From: Phycisphaerae bacterium
GTDB taxonomy: Bacteria; Planctomycetota; Phycisphaerae; Phycisphaerales; SM1A02
Direction of reading: 5' to 3'
Length of the DNA stretch: 47,331 bases
NCBI GenBank assembly: GCA_016873275.1
Contig: VGXO01000019.1
Location: 1 to 47,331 of the forward strand
Part shown: positions 5,272 to 35,043 of the stretch, in pieces
Numbering within the stretch: the first letter of the stretch is position 1
Layout of the letters: each line of letters opens with the position of its first letter
Program-made: the position numbers and the translations under genes
The notes under the pieces: generated by a model
Told to the model about the DNA's origin: nothing
The model's input: the letters and a program-made list of their open reading frames with translations, nothing else
Databases searched by the model: none

Positions 5272-6744
5272 TCAGACTCGGAGCACCGGACGCTCGGCGA
5301 GCGTCGCGGCGTGACGGGTCCGGATCGGCTCGACGACCTCGCGGAGGAATCGGTCCACTTGCGACGGGGCGAGCCCGACGAAGTCGCGGGCGTCGAGCGT
5401 GACGTCGATCCCGCGGAACGCCGGCTCACGGGCGAGCCGCTCGAGGAGGTCGTTCACGCCCCGCTCGCGGAGCGACGCCTGCGCCTCGCGGCTCTGGCGT
5501 CGGATCACCTCGTGCGCCTCCTGGCGGTCGGCGCCGCGCGAGGTTGCCATCATCAAGAGGGGCTCCGTGGCGAGGAAGGGCAGCTCCTCCGCGAGGCGGC
5601 GGCGGATCGCGGACTCGTGCACCTCGAGACCTTCGGCGACGTTCGCGAGGAGGTCGAGCGCGCCATCAAGGGCGAGGAACGCCTCCGGGATCATGAGCCG
5701 CCGGATCGAGGAGTCGTCGAGCGACCGCTCGAGCCACTGCGTCGAGGCGGTCTGAAGCGCCGAGGCGTGCAGTCCCTGCACGAAGCGGGCGAGACCGCAG
5801 GATCGCTCGCAGCGCATCGGATTCCGCTTGTACGCCATCGCCGAGGAGCCGACCTGCTCCGCCTCGATCGGCTCGGAGAGCTCGCCGAGCCCGGCAAGCA
5901 GGCGCACGTCGGTCGCGAACTTGTGGATCGCCGCCGCGGCGATCGCGAGCGCCCCGAGGATCCGGGCGTCCTGCAGCCGCGGCATCGTCTGCCCGACCAC
6001 GCTCCAGCAGCCGGTCGCCTCGAAGCCAAGGCGACGCGCGAAGGACTGCTCGAGCGCCTCGACCTTGGCGGCGTCGCCGCGGAAGAGCTCGAGGTAGGAC
6101 GCCTGGGTGCCGGTCGCGCCGCGCAGTCCCTTGAGGCGAAGCTCGGCGAGCGACCGCTCCACCTCCCCGAGGGCGATGACGAGGTCCTGCGTCCAGGTGC
6201 ACGCCCGCTTGCCCACCGTCGTCGGCTGCGCCGACTGGAAGTGGGTGAAGCCGCAGGTCGGGAGGTCGCGGTGGCGCGCCGCGAAGGTCGCGAGGCGGTC
6301 GATGCCGCGGGCGAGCTTCGCCGCGACGAGCCCGAGCGCCTGCCGCACCTGCAGCACCTCGGCGTTGCAGACGACGTCCTGGCTGGTCATCCCGAGGTGG
6401 ATCACGCCCTTCGCGCTCGGCGCCGCCTCCCCGAAGGCAAGCACGTGCGCCATCACGTCGTGGCGGATCCGGGTCTCGTGCCGCGCGGCGGCGGCGAAGT
6501 CGATCGCGTCCACCTTCGCCCGCATCTCCGCGATCGCCGCCTCGGGAATCGGCAGACCGAGCTCGCGCTCGCCCTCGGCGACCGCCAGCCAGATCCGACG
6601 CCACAGTCCGAACCGGACCTGATCGGACCAGAGCCGCCGCATCGCGGCGGAGGCGTTGCGGGTCTCGAGCGGCGAGACGTAGCCGGCGTGCGGTCCGCCA
6701 TCGCTCGAGCCGGTCGCCGGCAGCACGGAATCGGGGTGGTTCAT
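5272..6744 (-). CDS. purB: Adenylosuccinate lyase
   Basis: Removes fumarate from SAICAR and from adenylosuccinate in purine synthesis. The 490-aa product has the fumarase/aspartase-superfamily signature GSSAMAYKRNPM (299-310), MTSQD (119-123) and the catalytic His168 in FTHFQSAQPTT. SSAMAYKRNPMRCERSCGL and LDDSSIRRLMIPEAFL resemble the animal-type ADSL branch rather than the short bacterial PurB of Bacillus. The ATG at 6744 is the first after an N-terminus rich in Gly and Ser. A TAGCAT box on the minus strand lies only 10 nt before the start (6760-6755), so the leader may be very short. Confidence 0.95.
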   Translation of the reverse strand: MNHPDSVLPATGSSDGGPHAGYVSPLETRNASAAMRRLWSDQVRFGLWRRIWLAVAEGERELGLPIPEAAIAEMRAKVDAIDFAAAARHETRIRHDVMAHVLAFGEAAPSAKGVIHLGMTSQDVVCNAEVLQVRQALGLVAAKLARGIDRLATFAARHRDLPTCGFTHFQSAQPTTVGKRACTWTQDLVIALGEVERSLAELRLKGLRGATGTQASYLELFRGDAAKVEALEQSFARRLGFEATGCWSVVGQTMPRLQDARILGALAIAAAAIHKFATDVRLLAGLGELSEPIEAEQVGSSAMAYKRNPMRCERSCGLARFVQGLHASALQTASTQWLERSLDDSSIRRLMIPEAFLALDGALDLLANVAEGLEVHESAIRRRLAEELPFLATEPLLMMATSRGADRQEAHEVIRRQSREAQASLRERGVNDLLERLAREPAFRGIDVTLDARDFVGLAPSQVDRFLREVVEPIRTRHAATLAERPVLRV

Positions 6745-6785
6745 GGGCGTCGCGATGCTACCCGCACGACCCCGGCGTTCCCGGC

Positions 6786-7538
6786 TCAGGGCAGGGGACG
6801 TCGACCGATCCTCGGCTCGGTGCCGGCGAGCAGCCGGGCGACGTTCGTTCGGTGCCGAAGGAGCACGAGGAGCGCGATCAGGGTGGTCACGAAGAGGAGC
6901 GGCGGCGCGGCGCGCGGCGGCCAGAAGTCCACGTCGAAGGATTGGATCAGGATCACCGCCGGCGGCACGAACGCGGCGACGACGCTCGCGAGCGAGACGT
7001 ACCTCGAGATGGCGATGAGGATCACCCAACCGAGCAGGGCGCCGAGCATCGGGAGCGTCAGGAGCGGCCACATCGCCGCCATCGAGCCGAAGCCGGTCGC
7101 GACGCCCTTGCCGCCCTTGAAGCCAAGCCATGGGCAGAAGACGTGTCCGAGGATCGCCGCCGCCGCCACGGTCACCCAGGCCGTGGTCGGACCCGCCGCA
7201 GCGTCGGCGAGGGGAATGCCCCAGAGGTCCGCCCAGAGCCCGAACCCGAGCACGGGCAGGGCGCCCTTGAGCGCGTCGAGCACGAAGCAGGCGATGCCCC
7301 ATGGTCGACCGAGGGCGCGACCGAGGTTCGTCGCGCCGATGTTCCCGGAGCCGACCGAGCGAAGGTCGATGCCATGGAGCCGACCGATGAGCAGACCGAA
7401 CGGCACGCTGCCGCAGAGGAACGAGGCGATGAGGACGCCCGCGAGCACGAACGGGTCGAAGGACCATTCGATCGCGCCCACGAAGGGTTCGACCCGTGGA
7501 TCCGGCGCCGAGGCGAGAAGGAGCAGGGCGTCAGGCAC
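6786..7538 (-). CDS. plsY: Acyl-phosphate:glycerol-3-phosphate acyltransferase PlsY
   Basis: Integral membrane enzyme that transfers an acyl chain from acyl-phosphate to glycerol-3-phosphate, the first step of phospholipid synthesis (with PlsX, not in this window). The 250-aa product has several hydrophobic segments and the three family motifs: GSGNIGATN (63-71), KGGKGVATG (141-149), and a C-terminal LRHRTNVARLLAGTEPR. It is slightly longer than most PlsY because of about 30 extra N-terminal residues and an insertion around VDFWPPRA. A downstream start nearer SFDPFVLAGVL is possible. It sits between the HAD membrane protein and purB. Confidence 0.95.
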   Translation of the reverse strand: MPDALLLLASAPDPRVEPFVGAIEWSFDPFVLAGVLIASFLCGSVPFGLLIGRLHGIDLRSVGSGNIGATNLGRALGRPWGIACFVLDALKGALPVLGFGLWADLWGIPLADAAAGPTTAWVTVAAAAILGHVFCPWLGFKGGKGVATGFGSMAAMWPLLTLPMLGALLGWVILIAISRYVSLASVVAAFVPPAVILIQSFDVDFWPPRAAPPLLFVTTLIALLVLLRHRTNVARLLAGTEPRIGRRPLP

Positions 7539-7577: not shown

Positions 7578-8618
7578 TCATCGTCGGTCGAGGAGGAGGA
7601 CCACGATCGCGGTCAGCTGCAGCACGACCGCGCCGAGGAACCATCGAAGGAAGACCTGCGGGTCGCCGCCCTGCACGATCCCCATCACCACCGCAAGCAT
7701 CACCGCCAACTGGATCGCGATCGCGACCACCTTGCCGCCGGTGAGGTCCCGCTCGCTCGCCCGGAGCCGGCGAAGCTCCTCGACGAGGTCCTCGAGCGCC
7801 GGCTTCAGCGGGCTCTCGATCGATCGAAGCGCCGGGTCATGCTCGCCATCGCGTGCGCGGGATCGAGCGGGCGACTCGCCTCGCGGCTCGGGTGGCACGT
7901 CAGGCGTCGCGGCTCCACCCGGCGGGGCGATCGGTCGCGTCCGCGCCATGGCGAGGCGCTCGGAACCCGCCGTCGCGGTCGCCGTGATCGGCGTCGGGAT
8001 CGCGACCGAGGCGTCCGTCGAGCTCGTCAGCACCTCGACGACGGGGGGCTCCGACGGTCCGACCGCGGCTCGGCTCCCGTCATGGGCGACCGCCTCGAGC
8101 GCCGCGAGCAGCGACTCCGGACTTGCCTCGTGGCGTCCCCGCGCGAGCTCGGTCGCCGCCCGGGATGGATCGCCGATCGAGGCGACCCTGCATCCCGCGG
8201 CGCTCGCGAGGGCGAGGTCCTCCGGGCGAGCGGCGACCACCCAGCTCGCCGCGAGGTCGAGGTCGAGGTCCTCCGCGGCCTGCAGCAGCATGCCCGGTCG
8301 CGGCTTCCGCCAGGGGTGATCGCGCCGATAGGGCTCGAGCGTCGCGTCGGGATCGAAGGGGCACCAGTAGAAGCGATCGACGACCGCGTCGCCGGCGGCG
8401 CTCGCAAGCGCCGCGGCGAGGAGCTGGTCCCGCTCCTGCACGCTCGACTCGACGAGCTCGCCTTGGGCGACCCGCGGCTCGTTGGTCGCGACGACCACCG
8501 CAAAGCCGCGGCGGCGGAGCTCGAGGAGCCGCCGCGCGATCTCCGCCAGCGCCTTCGGGGAGGCATCCTCGCGAAGCACGAGGTCACGACGGTCGAGGAA
8601 GAGGGCGGCGCGGGGCAT
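7578..8618 (-). CDS. Degenerate GmhB-like HAD-domain protein with two C-terminal membrane helices
   Basis: A 346-aa protein in three parts. Residues 1-150 align by eye with histidinol-phosphate/heptose-bisphosphate (GmhB-type) HAD phosphatases: FLDRRDLVL at motif I, VVVATNEPRVAQGEL at motif II, WRKPRPGMLLQAAEDLDLDL at motif III. Key residues are changed: the second Asp of motif I (DxD) is Arg11, and the motif IV VGD is VAA with Ala130, so phosphatase activity is doubtful. The usual Cys/His zinc loop is reduced to one Cys (86). Residues about 150-290 are a Pro/Ala/Thr-rich linker. Residues 296-315 and 324-344 are two strongly hydrophobic helices. It is likely a membrane-tethered pseudophosphatase or binding protein; the function is unknown. 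Confidence 0.8.
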   Translation of the reverse strand: MPRAALFLDRRDLVLREDASPKALAEIARRLLELRRRGFAVVVATNEPRVAQGELVESSVQERDQLLAAALASAAGDAVVDRFYWCPFDPDATLEPYRRDHPWRKPRPGMLLQAAEDLDLDLAASWVVAARPEDLALASAAGCRVASIGDPSRAATELARGRHEASPESLLAALEAVAHDGSRAAVGPSEPPVVEVLTSSTDASVAIPTPITATATAGSERLAMARTRPIAPPGGAATPDVPPEPRGESPARSRARDGEHDPALRSIESPLKPALEDLVEELRRLRASERDLTGGKVVAIAIQLAVMLAVVMGIVQGGDPQVFLRWFLGAVVLQLTAIVVLLLDRR

Positions 8619-8640: not shown

Positions 8641-9789
8641 CTAGCAGACCGGCGACGCGGGGCGGTCGCCGGCGGGAATCTCGATGGAGGCGCCGAAGCT
8701 CGTGCCCACGGCGCGGGCGGCGTCGACGAGCGGATCGCCGAGCGGCACGGTTCGCTGGCGGTCCGCCGCGGCGACGAGGTCGACCTCCGTGAAGCAGTGC
8801 CGCTGCCTGACGATCAGGCGGTTGCGGGCGCCCTGCATGAGCGCGGTCACCGCCCAGAACCCGAAGTTCGTGGCGAGGACGCGGTCCGCGGCGATGGGAC
8901 CGCCGCCCCGCTGGACGTGCCCGAGCACGGTGACGCGGGTCTCGAGCCCGGTCCGCGCCCCGATCTCGTGCGCCACCACCGCCCCGATGCCGCCGAGGCG
9001 GATCGGATCGGCGCTCGAGAGGTCGACCTTCGCGACCACCTGCTCGCCATCGCGGGGGCGGGCACCCTCCGCGACGACGACGATCGCGAAGCCCGGACCA
9101 AACCGCCGGCGGGCGTCGATGAACTCGGCGATCGCGTCCCACTGGAAGGGGACCTCCGGCATCAGGATCACGTCGGAGCCGCTCGCGACGCCCGCGGTGA
9201 GGGCGATCCAGCCGGCGTTGCGGCCCATGACCTCGCAGACCATCACGCGATGGTGGCTCTCCGCGGTCGAGTGCAGCTTGTCGATGGCGTCGGTCGCGGT
9301 GGCGACGGCGGTGAGGAAGCCGATCGAGATCTCGCTGCCGACGAGGTCGTTGTCGATCGTCTTGGGGATCCCGATGATGTTGAGCCCGCGCTCGACGAGC
9401 CGCGATGCGCCGCTCATCGTGCCGTCGCCGCCGATGACCACGAGGGCGTCGAGCTTCGCCCGCTCGACCGTCTCGACGCAGCGATGGCGGAGGTCCTCGT
9501 GACGAGGCTTGCCCTCCGGGTCGAGCCCGACGAACTGGCGTGCCGGGTTCGCCCGGTTGTTGCTGCCGAGCATGGTGCCGCCGCGGGCAAGGATGCCGGA
9601 GGCGTCGCGGGCGGTGAGCGGGCGGGTCCGTCCCTCGATGAGACCCTGGAAGCCATCCTCGATGCCGACGACCTCGAGCCCGTAGCGAAAGATCGCCGTC
9701 TTGACGACGGCGCGGATGGTCGCGTTGAGACCGGGGCAATCGCCGCCCGCGGTCAGCACGCCGATGCGTCGGATCGGTGGGTGCGCCAT
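8641..9789 (-). CDS. pfkA: 6-phosphofructokinase (PfkA family)
   Basis: Phosphorylates fructose-6-phosphate in glycolysis. The 382-aa product has GGDCPGLN (15-22), GGDGT (120-124), PKTIDND (142-148) with the catalytic Asp, MGRNAGWIAL and GHVQRGG. The Gly in GGDGT is the residue associated with ATP use, whereas the Lys in PKTIDND is the one commonly seen in PPi-dependent enzymes, a mix found in the group III PFKs. ATP is the likelier donor but this is not settled. The start at MAHPPIRRIGVL is chosen because homology begins there; the open frame upstream runs into the divergent lysS promoter. It is the first gene of the minus-strand string. Confidence 0.93.
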   Translation of the reverse strand: MAHPPIRRIGVLTAGGDCPGLNATIRAVVKTAIFRYGLEVVGIEDGFQGLIEGRTRPLTARDASGILARGGTMLGSNNRANPARQFVGLDPEGKPRHEDLRHRCVETVERAKLDALVVIGGDGTMSGASRLVERGLNIIGIPKTIDNDLVGSEISIGFLTAVATATDAIDKLHSTAESHHRVMVCEVMGRNAGWIALTAGVASGSDVILMPEVPFQWDAIAEFIDARRRFGPGFAIVVVAEGARPRDGEQVVAKVDLSSADPIRLGGIGAVVAHEIGARTGLETRVTVLGHVQRGGGPIAADRVLATNFGFWAVTALMQGARNRLIVRQRHCFTEVDLVAAADRQRTVPLGDPLVDAARAVGTSFGASIEIPAGDRPASPVC

Positions 9790-9825
9790 GGAGGTCTCGG
9801 GTCCGAGGTGACCGCGGTCGAAGGG

Positions 9826-9831
9826 TACCAT
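9826..9831 (+). promoter_or_regulatory. Candidate -10 element for lysS
   Basis: TACCAT in the context GGGTACCATCGCCGC lies 25 nt before the lysS ATG in the 67-nt gap shared with the divergent pfkA. No good -35 hexamer was found. The same GGTAnnnTCGCCGC pattern recurs before other genes of this window. A start near 9838 would give a leader of about 19 nt containing AAGGA. Confidence 0.3.
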
Positions 9832-9856
9832 CGCCGCTCGAAGGACCTCCACGCCG

Positions 9857-11458
9857 ATGTCGACCCCCGCGCCGCACGAGACGCCCGATCCCGCACCCTC
9901 CGCCCACGATCTCGTGGAGGCGAGGCGGGAGAAGCTCCGGCAGTTCCGGGCCGCGGGTCTTGATCCCTACGGTCGCCGCGTCGAGGGTCTGCTCCAGCTC
10001 GCCGACGCGCGGGCGATGTTCGATCCCACGCACCAGGCGGCGGCGGACGCGGGAACCTCGCCGGATCCGCGGCGGCGCGTGGTCGTCGCCGGTCGGGTCA
10101 TGCAGCACCGCGACCTCGGCAAGCTCGTCTTCCTGAGCCTCCGCGACGCGTCGGGCGACCTGCAGGCGACGATCTCGAAGACCGTCGCGGGCGAGGCGGT
10201 CTTCGACCTCGCGAAGCGGCTCGACTACGGCGACCTCGTCGTCGCCGCGGGACCGATCGGGGCGACCAAGCGCGGCGAGGTCTGCGTGTGGGTCGATCGG
10301 CTCGAGCTCGCGAGCAAGAGCCTCGCGCCCCCGCCCGAGAAGTGGCACGGCCTCGTGGACGCGGAGCTGCGGTCGCGTCGGCGGTACGTCGACCTCCACG
10401 CGAATCCCGACAGCATGAAGGTCTTCACCGCGCGGAGCCGGATCGTCGCGCGGATCCGGAGGTTCATGGAGGCGAGGGGCTTCCTCGAGGTCGAGACGCC
10501 GATGATGCAGCCGATCGCCGGCGGCGCCGCGGCGCGACCCTTCGTCACGCACCACAACGCCCTCGACCTGCCGCTGTTCATGCGGGTCGCGCCGGAGCTC
10601 TACCTCAAGCGGCTCCTCGTCGGCGGGATGCCGAAGGTCTTCGAGATCAACCGCAACTTCCGCAACGAGGGCGTCGACCGCAGCCACAACCCCGAGTTCA
10701 CCGCGATGGAGGCGTACGAGGCGTTCGGCGACTACGGGACGATGCTCGAGCTCACCGAGTCGCTGATCCACGAGCTCGCCGTCGCCGCCGCCGAGGAGCG
10801 GCGCGGCGAGGCAGGCGTGGTCGAGGGCGACGGCTCCCGCGGTCCGGTGCTGCCCTTCGGCGACCTCGCCATGGACTACGCCAAGCCCTTCGTCCGCGTC
10901 TCGTACGAGGAGCTCTTCCGTCGCGCCGTCGGCGTCCCGTGCACCGACGCCGCCGCGGTGCGCGAGCGGGCCCGCGCCCTTCGGATCGACGAGGCGTCCA
11001 TGGAGGACTGGCTCGTCGTCAACGAGGTCTTCGAGCGCGTCGCCGAGCCGACGATCGATCCGACGCGTCCCACCTTCGTCCTCGACTATCCGAGCGCGAT
11101 CTCGCCGCTCACGCGACCCCGCCGCGATCGCCCGGAGCTCGCCGAGCGCTGGGACGTCTTCATCGGCGGCATGGAGGTCGGTCCCGCGTACACCGAGCTC
11201 AACGATCCGGACGTCCAGCTCGAGCGCTTCCAGGCGCAGCTCCGCGGGGGCAACGACGAGGAGCGCACCTTCCGGAGCCTCGACGACGACTTCATCGAGG
11301 CGCTTCGGGTCGGCATGCCGCCGGCGGGCGGACTCGGTCTCGGCATCGACCGGATCGTGATGCTGCTGACCAACCGGCTGAACGTCCGCGACGTGATCCT
11401 CTTCCCGCTGCTCCGACCGGCGGGGCATGCCGCCGCCGAGCCGCCCGCGGACGGCTGA
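9857..11458 (+). CDS. lysS: Lysyl-tRNA synthetase, class II
   Basis: Attaches lysine to tRNA-Lys. The 533-aa product has an N-terminal OB-fold anticodon-binding domain (about residues 75-155, VVVAGRVMQHRDLGKLVFLSLRD) and a class II catalytic domain with motif 2 FEINRNFRNEG (262-272), the RSHNPEFTAMEAY segment, and motif 3 GGLGLGIDRIVML near residue 505. The Pro-rich first 18 residues are dispensable-looking. AAGGA lies 11 nt before the ATG. The transglutaminase-like gene begins 2 nt after the stop, so the two are in one transcript. Confidence 0.97.
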   Translation: MSTPAPHETPDPAPSAHDLVEARREKLRQFRAAGLDPYGRRVEGLLQLADARAMFDPTHQAAADAGTSPDPRRRVVVAGRVMQHRDLGKLVFLSLRDASGDLQATISKTVAGEAVFDLAKRLDYGDLVVAAGPIGATKRGEVCVWVDRLELASKSLAPPPEKWHGLVDAELRSRRRYVDLHANPDSMKVFTARSRIVARIRRFMEARGFLEVETPMMQPIAGGAAARPFVTHHNALDLPLFMRVAPELYLKRLLVGGMPKVFEINRNFRNEGVDRSHNPEFTAMEAYEAFGDYGTMLELTESLIHELAVAAAEERRGEAGVVEGDGSRGPVLPFGDLAMDYAKPFVRVSYEELFRRAVGVPCTDAAAVRERARALRIDEASMEDWLVVNEVFERVAEPTIDPTRPTFVLDYPSAISPLTRPRRDRPELAERWDVFIGGMEVGPAYTELNDPDVQLERFQAQLRGGNDEERTFRSLDDDFIEALRVGMPPAGGLGLGIDRIVMLLTNRLNVRDVILFPLLRPAGHAAAEPPADG

Positions 11459-34452: not shown

Positions 34453-35043
34453 GTGAACAAGACAAGCTGCACCACCGCCCGGCAGTACCTCGACGGGCTC
34501 GCCTCGCTTCTCGGACGCCTCGATGCCGCCGCGATCGACCGGTTGACCGAGATGGTGCATCAGCGGTGGGAGGTGGACAAGCAGGTCCTCGTCATCGGAA
34601 ACGGCGGGAGCGCCTCGACCGCCTCGCACTACGTCACCGACCTCGTCAAGACCGCCTCGGTGCCGGGCACGCGGCGGCTTCGATCGTTGAGCCTCAGCGA
34701 CAACCCGGGACTCACCACCGCGATCGGCAACGACATCGCCTACGAGGACACCTTCCTCTTCCCGCTCGAGGCGTACGGTCGCGACGGCGACCTCCTCATC
34801 GCGATCAGCGGCTCCGGGAACTCGCCGAACATCGTCAAGGCAGTCCGCTTCGCGAAGGAGCATGGGATCGAGGTCGCGGCGCTCACCGGCTTCGACGGCG
34901 GGGCGATCGGTCGCATGGCGGACCTCCACGTGAACGTGCCCAGCGACAACTACGGGCTCGTCGAGGACCTGCACCTCTCGATCGGGCACATGATCGGTCA
35001 GGGGCTCCGGGCGCGGATCGCCCGCTCGCACGTCCGGGCGTGA
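34453..35043 (+). CDS. GmhA-like SIS-domain phosphosugar isomerase
   Basis: A 196-aa SIS protein of the phosphoheptose isomerase type, which converts sedoheptulose-7-phosphate to glycero-manno-heptose-7-phosphate. Visible are GNGGSASTASHY (49-60), LSDNPGLTTAIGND (81-94), ISGSGNSPNIVKA (118-130) and VEDLHLSIGHMI with Glu171, His174 and His179 in the area of the catalytic His. The residue equal to the catalytic Glu of E. coli GmhA appears to be Asp63. A related role on another sugar phosphate is possible. The start is GTG with GGGAG 7 nt upstream. It heads a unit with two glycosyltransferases. Confidence 0.85.
   Translation: MNKTSCTTARQYLDGLASLLGRLDAAAIDRLTEMVHQRWEVDKQVLVIGNGGSASTASHYVTDLVKTASVPGTRRLRSLSLSDNPGLTTAIGNDIAYEDTFLFPLEAYGRDGDLLIAISGSGNSPNIVKAVRFAKEHGIEVAALTGFDGGAIGRMADLHVNVPSDNYGLVEDLHLSIGHMIGQGLRARIARSHVRA

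Follow-up and report, generated by a model that had tools for sequence, protein, structure and literature searches.

A predicted GmhB-type pseudoenzyme with a membrane tail, specific to one lineage of Phycisphaerales

Introduction

Why would a bacterium maintain a phosphatase-like protein that has lost the acids needed for catalysis? The question is raised by an open reading frame at positions 7578-8618, on the reverse strand, of a 47,331-nucleotide stretch of Phycisphaerae DNA (the window). From the letters alone, an initial annotation proposed that it encodes a membrane-tethered pseudo-phosphatase of the GmhB type, which could bind a phosphosugar and signal instead of catalyzing. GmhB is D-glycero-D-manno-heptose-1,7-bisphosphate 7-phosphatase. 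Here, we ask what this protein descends from, when it changed, and whether it is still maintained.

Results

A GmhB-like HAD domain joined to a predicted membrane hairpin

The frame starts with ATG and runs for 346 codons without an internal stop. A promoter and terminator scan at the locus found neither. Profile and PDB matches, alignments and an AlphaFold2 model together describe a HAD domain, a linker and a C-terminal membrane hairpin. The Pfam Hydrolase_like profile matches above its cut-off (2e-06). Among NCBIfam profiles, residues 25-164 match the GmhB/HisB-N group, including NF006506 (4.9e-18; 65.3 bits against a curated cut-off of 178) and TIGR00213 (5.7e-16; 58.7 against 149.6), with all 11 matches falling below their curated cut-offs. 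The top PDB sequence match is E. coli GmhB (3l8e, 1.5e-18), and the predicted structure aligns with another E. coli GmhB entry, 2gmw, over 163 residues (VIA-align Z 19.9, rmsd 2.8). Profile, PDB and fold matches therefore agree on a GmhB-type HAD domain, as first annotated.

In the model, this domain spans residues 1-184 (8067-8618, reverse strand), mostly with pLDDT of 90 or more. The linker that follows (residues 185-270; 7809-8066, reverse strand) is of low confidence, with pLDDT below 50 at residues 184-229, and within the window's genus its identity is the lowest among the regions compared. Three C-terminal helices are then predicted at 271-289, 294-315 and 320-345, and both the first helix and the hairpin formed by the other two are modelled confidently. 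The hairpin (7584-7739, reverse strand) is also apparent from hydropathy. Thus, AlphaFold2 predicts the long linker and the two membrane helices that had been read from the sequence, while a Pfam search with the tail gave no match near the cut-off.

Loss of catalytic residues in the window's genus

The HAD motif definitions used here agree with those in PMC8204981. Instead of the DxD of motif I, which is DRD in intact orthologues, the window protein has D9-R10-R11 (8586-8594, reverse strand), and R11 aligns with the second Asp of the motif in a PDB sequence alignment with 2o2x. At motif IV, GDxxxD, it has A129-A130 (8229-8234, reverse strand) where intact orthologues have GD; the pair aligns with the Gly-Asp of E. 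coli GmhB, and D134 is kept. The Ser/Thr of motif II (T45) and the Lys of motif III (K105) are present. These alignments bear out the replacement of the motif I Asp by Arg11 and of the motif IV Asp by Ala130 noted at the outset. In E. coli GmhB, we take the aligned acids to be the general acid/base and a magnesium ligand. We infer that the window protein is unable to hydrolyze phosphomonoesters.

Both acids are absent in all three members of the window's genus, with R, no Asp and H at position 11, and A, G and G at position 130. In one member, L002, no Asp follows D-R and the aligner opened a gap there. Because both other genomes lack both acids and their replacements partly differ, the loss in the window protein goes beyond chance, and its reading as a pseudo-phosphatase gains from this recurrence. 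Sequencing error is unlikely, as three separate assemblies show the losses. In an alignment of 30 proteins, DRD and GD occur in 27 of 27 from outside the genus and in none of the three from inside.

A wider set of 158 distinct homologues has Asp at position 9 in 156, at 11 in 154 and at 130 in 148, while the motif II Ser/Thr and Lys105 occur in every one. L002 is the homologue that lacks Asp9 as a gap; it shows D9 in the 30-protein alignment. The initial annotation hinged on whether orthologues keep the two acids, and the answer is divided: 145 homologues outside the window's genus keep them, whereas all of its members have lost both, which marks the loss as lineage-specific.

Single replacements also occur elsewhere among the 158. 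Asn takes the place of the motif IV Asp in L052, L079, L082, L095, L097 and L110, with DxD kept, and L086 has Ala at the nucleophile D9 with the other acids kept. The only double loss besides the three genus members is L040 (PBAS01000083.1, Phycisphaeraceae SP4387; match at 8770-9816), which has DRE and GS and has no GT9 gene directly downstream. It is apparently a second loss, independent of that in the window's genus.

The changes extend beyond the two acids. Thirty-eight columns are conserved at 93% or more in the 145 intact homologues, and 11 of these are altered in each genus member with a residue at that position: D11, T13, G19, Q47, G49, R52, H89, G129, D130, R133 and G138 (L002 is gapped at D11, T13 and G19). 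Ten of the 11 sit at motif I, the flap, the motif II loop, H89 or motif IV. Another 18 columns are unchanged in all three members (L34, G38, N46, V50, G53, V60, C86, P87, P90, H101, R104, K105, P106, G109, M110, A114, W126 and D134), and nine are mixed or gapped. Some replacements, E47, A129 and A138, are shared within the genus. The flap is deleted or altered there, which, together with the changes at Q47, G49, R52 and H89, speaks against an unchanged substrate pocket.

The zinc loop, first described as lost from this protein, is indeed absent, but the absence is older. None of the 30 aligned proteins, intact ones included, has the E. coli-type ligands CxH...CxC, and so their absence is not specific to the window protein. 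Of the 145 intact homologues, 137 keep C86, 143 keep H89 and 141 keep H101, and this near-invariance makes a variant metal site possible in them. In the three genus members H89 is replaced by D, T and S, suggesting that such a site may have been lost there.

The membrane tail predates the catalytic loss

Relatives of the protein are widespread in the group. An initial scan of genome contigs with the single window protein as query returned none. Matches at E<=0.001 were found in 52 of 61 related genomes and in 135 of 181 genomes of the same family (its own genome counted), some of them being other HADs or pieces at contig edges. The best 80 of 546 named candidates are labelled mostly as Phycisphaerales, Phycisphaerae or Planctomycetota metagenome-assembled genomes, with a few others.

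By a crude hydropathy scan, 88 of the 158 homologues have two C-terminal membrane segments, 21 have one, 48 none and one has three. For the intact orthologue L014, a linker and hairpin are predicted as in the window protein. Since the tail is present in many intact orthologues, it was not gained in the window's genus, contrary to the initial annotation: the tail is the older feature and the catalytic loss the younger. Neither the tail nor the missing E. coli-type zinc loop is a special feature of this protein, both states being common to intact orthologues. We also considered a free-standing tail and rejected it. A search with the tail gave 37 matches in 36 of 61 genomes, 34 of them at the HAD's own place; the exceptions lie at a contig edge (G005), on a different contig from the HAD match (G049), or are weak and partial (G027).

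A conserved locus identifies the protein as an orthologue

Pfam and NCBIfam matches agree with the first assignment of the neighbors. Upstream lies pfkA (8641-9852, reverse strand, with a mechanically set start), whose stop is separated from the pseudo-GmhB frame by 22 bases, and 39 bases beyond that frame comes plsY (6786-7538, reverse strand). Synteny supports both, as it does purB beyond plsY (5272-6747, reverse strand; TIGR00928 5.4e-107, above cut-off) and the divergent lysS (9857-11458, forward strand; Pfam). The order lysS, divergent from pfkA-HAD-(gene)-plsY-purB, is conserved widely among homologues. Within 5 kb of the HAD, on either strand, plsY was found in 85 of 158 loci and pfkA in 80. 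Many of the 158 are too short to show neighbors, and some of the pfkA matches are weak (about 85-106 bits), lie on the opposite strand and are probably another gene.

The additional gene encodes a GT9 glycosyltransferase (PF01075), which we take to be a heptosyltransferase. It lies directly downstream of the HAD in 93 of the 129 loci that offer 1.5 kb to inspect. The 36 loci lacking it comprise 13 from the genus g60, the three of the window's genus, L040, two paralogue loci and a remainder of 17, among which 12 resemble one another in sequence.

From its conserved position between pfkA and plsY, we conclude that the window protein is the orthologue, and it carries the homologous C-terminal hairpin as well. 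In a tree of the HAD domain, the window's genus is monophyletic (1.0) but placed deep, with weak support, apart from its species-tree neighbors, and orthology consequently rests on synteny. Its branches are among the longest of the 158 (ranks 1, 2 and 9), and the deep placement is probably long-branch attraction. Synteny likewise argues against a paralogue, and the second copies in genomes G000 and G001 are intact and lie elsewhere.

Those second HADs, of GmhB type, stand beside a nucleotidyltransferase, with a GHMP kinase as well in G001. Sugar-nucleotide clusters that combine an intact GmhB-like HAD with a nucleotidyltransferase occur at L191 (4963-8574), which also has a GHMP kinase, and at L192 (6689-8634). 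In G002, searches for a second HAD and for GmhA found no match. Within the window, a GmhA-like SIS protein is encoded at 34453-35043 on the forward strand, adjoining a glycosyltransferase-like frame and shortly preceded by a frame that resembles rplQ. The set of second HAD, nucleotidyltransferase, GHMP kinase and GmhA-like SIS protein resembles the alpha-heptose (GDP) route, and the old phosphatase may accordingly not be needed there.

The ADP-heptose route is apparently absent from the window's genus

We asked how the HAD gene co-occurs with other genes of the route. Because every genome of the family falls short of the curated cut-offs of TIGR02198 and TIGR00441, we set our own thresholds: E<=1e-40 with TIGR02198 for HldE and E<=1e-25 with TIGR00441 for GmhA. 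Across 178 family genomes outside the window's genus, 108 have both HAD and HldE, 24 only the HAD, 10 only HldE and 36 neither (Fisher p=3.7e-13, not corrected for shared ancestry). The corresponding counts for GmhA are 98, 34, 7 and 39 (p=2e-12). Hence 60 genomes lack HldE, 36 without a HAD match and 24 with one. Sixteen of these 24 are the genus g60 (G114-G129) and eight are others, so the link between the HAD and the heptose route is not exact. None of the 16 g60 genomes has HldE at E<=1e-40, and none of three tested has GT9; the HAD residues are intact in the g60 copies seen (for example, L154 and L194).

In the window's genus, none of the three members has HldE at E<=1e-40 or GT9. Their HldE-profile matches are weak (2.1e-5, 1.7e-12 and 2.6e-4), and two of the three have a weaker GmhA-like match (2.0e-31 and 2.5e-31). 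Absences in fragmented assemblies may reflect gaps, with completeness stated as 96-100%. Loss of lipid A does not explain the pattern: LpxC is present in all three members and in 27 of 27 chosen genomes. GT9 was found in 14 of 27 chosen genomes searched for it; 13 of these 14 have HldE, and all 13 without GT9 also lack HldE. No HisN match above cut-off was found in 61 genomes, an uninformative result.

In other lineages the gene is apparently absent altogether. At 12 plsY loci read in HAD-less genomes, 10 of them with both pfkA and plsY visible, no HAD was found at E<1e-3. Two g19 loci have a short frame between pfkA and plsY (L212, 2849-3103, and L215, 5200-5460, both on the reverse strand) that weakly resembles, at 10-12 bits, the half of the HAD containing motif IV and may be what is left of it. 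On a midpoint-rooted species tree from 51 concatenated loci, the losses fall on several branches, with g26 beside g27 (0.96) and one genome within g55 (1.0). The window's genus is placed beside g61 with weak support (0.77), and g60 beside g17 (1.0).

The protein appears to remain under purifying selection

Within the window's genus, the neighboring proteins are 74-78% identical, the HAD match 55-61% and the tail 55-62%. Seven intact pairs whose neighbors are 71-74% identical keep 66-85% in the HAD. Rough dN/dS values, with dS near saturation, are 0.30-0.39 for the HAD match in the window's genus (0.34-0.41 for residues 1-180) and 0.06-0.18 for the HAD of nine intact pairs; two more pairs gave no estimate. 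For the tail, the values are 0.32-0.37 in the genus versus 0.10-0.77 in four intact pairs. Because the HAD value lies near that of the tail and below 1, constraint on the HAD fell to the level of the tail but did not vanish. We simulated neutral evolution 2000 times per pair for two pairs, calibrated on third positions and with an assumed base composition; 99.5% of the runs acquired a stop, and identity averaged 16-18%, compared with the 46-50% seen. The window protein thus looks to be under purifying selection, and its retention is well supported.

Discussion

Several explanations can be offered for such a protein. It could be a relic in slow decay after loss of the pathway, whose position between pfkA and plsY is all that has preserved it so far. 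A HAD dN/dS roughly two- to sixfold that seen in intact pairs would fit, as would replacements that partly differ from species to species and the absence of the gene from all 12 plsY loci read in HAD-less genomes. Yet the three full-length frames are open in species whose neighboring proteins have already diverged to 74-78% identity, which a simulation free of selection almost never reproduces. dN/dS is well below 1 in HAD and tail alike, and some replacements are shared. We therefore consider a relic unlikely.

The ligand sensor envisaged at the outset, in which T45, K105 and R104 would let the dead pocket hold a phosphorylated metabolite and signal its presence at the membrane, draws on the retention of D9, T/S45, N46, R104 and K105 in all three members, the T/S exchange aside. 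Tether and linker would suit signal transfer, and the products of neighboring genes handle phosphorylated metabolites. We nevertheless regard it as rather improbable: the flap and the pocket positions Q47, G49, R52 and H89 have not survived intact, and the residues that remain may play a part in the fold as well. Least convincing, and in our view quite improbable, is an active enzyme of changed chemistry, with D9 as nucleophile and metal ligands migrated or absent. Retention of D9, K105 and D134 in all three members would fit it, but such an enzyme would have to do without the general acid/base and without the metal ligand of motif IV, for which no conserved replacement appears at 11 or 130.

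We lean, with some reserve, toward a pseudoenzyme descended from the tethered GmhB of Phycisphaerales and retained at the membrane as a scaffold or regulator without catalysis. Homology, orthology by synteny, the pattern of residue loss, pathway co-loss and purifying selection are established computationally, and at the sequence level catalytic residues have been lost from a maintained protein. With these residues and apparently the pathway gone and the protein preserved, a job without catalysis is probable. Changes in the pocket flap and loop make a scaffold or regulatory subunit likelier than a sensor. The weaker constraint on the HAD relative to intact pairs and the long branches weigh against this reading, as slow decay would look alike.

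The intact orthologue would be the order's GmhB, with g60 as an unexplained exception. Under the pseudoenzyme reading, the ADP-heptose route, with HldE and the GT9 enzymes, would have been lost in the window's genus and constraint on the active site would then have relaxed. Changes would subsequently have reached the Asp that serves as general acid/base, that of motif IV, the flap and a number of residues in the pocket, with selection still maintaining a folded HAD domain and its membrane hairpin. The HAD domain would face the cytoplasm, and the protein would serve at the inner membrane as a scaffold or a regulatory subunit without catalysis. Its partner is probably an enzyme of the envelope with which the tethered GmhB was already in contact.

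A bolder and more doubtful conjecture gives the tethered Phycisphaerales GmhB an additional inner-membrane role that does not depend on catalysis and that two lineages without the heptose route would expose. In g60 the enzyme would be kept intact. In the window's genus only the scaffold would be kept, freed of catalytic constraint and specialized as a membrane scaffold or a sensor serving the synthesis of lipid A or of phospholipids.

The history of this apparent lineage-specific GmhB-type pseudoenzyme is fairly clear. It offers a natural experiment in the passage from enzyme to pseudoenzyme, in which the pathway went first and catalysis afterwards while the locus stayed the same. Relatives that have no such gene, rather than a catalytically dead one, supply the contrast. 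A non-catalytic membrane function of a core LPS-sugar enzyme thereby becomes testable. In the literature covered, which includes few subscription papers, we found no GmhB pseudoenzyme and nothing on Phycisphaerales together with GmhB or heptosyltransferase, which is weak evidence of novelty.

Among known systems, GmhB (3l8e and 2gmw from E. coli, 3l8h from B. bronchiseptica) gives the best match in sequence and fold. Intact orthologues keep its DxD, Lys and GDxxxD and often adjoin GT9 genes. The window protein differs from it in lacking the second Asp of motif I, the motif IV Asp and the E. coli-type zinc ligands, and in having the linker and membrane hairpin. The HAD-like phosphatase mll2559 of Mesorhizobium loti (2o2x; VIA Z 17.5 against the window model) has CxxH...DHPxRKPxPGM without CxC, as intact orthologues do. 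Its catalytic Asp residues are kept in the PDB alignment, however, and the solved chain of 218 residues has no tail. The nearest functional analogy is fungal Tim50, described as a membrane-anchored HAD protein with an imperfect DxDx(T/V), no phosphatase activity and the role of a receptor subunit (PMC8346121). Tim50 differs in belonging to a eukaryotic CTD-phosphatase-like branch, in its N-in C-out topology and in serving mitochondrial protein import, and we claim no homology beyond the HAD fold. What the two would have in common is a HAD domain held at a membrane for something other than catalysis.
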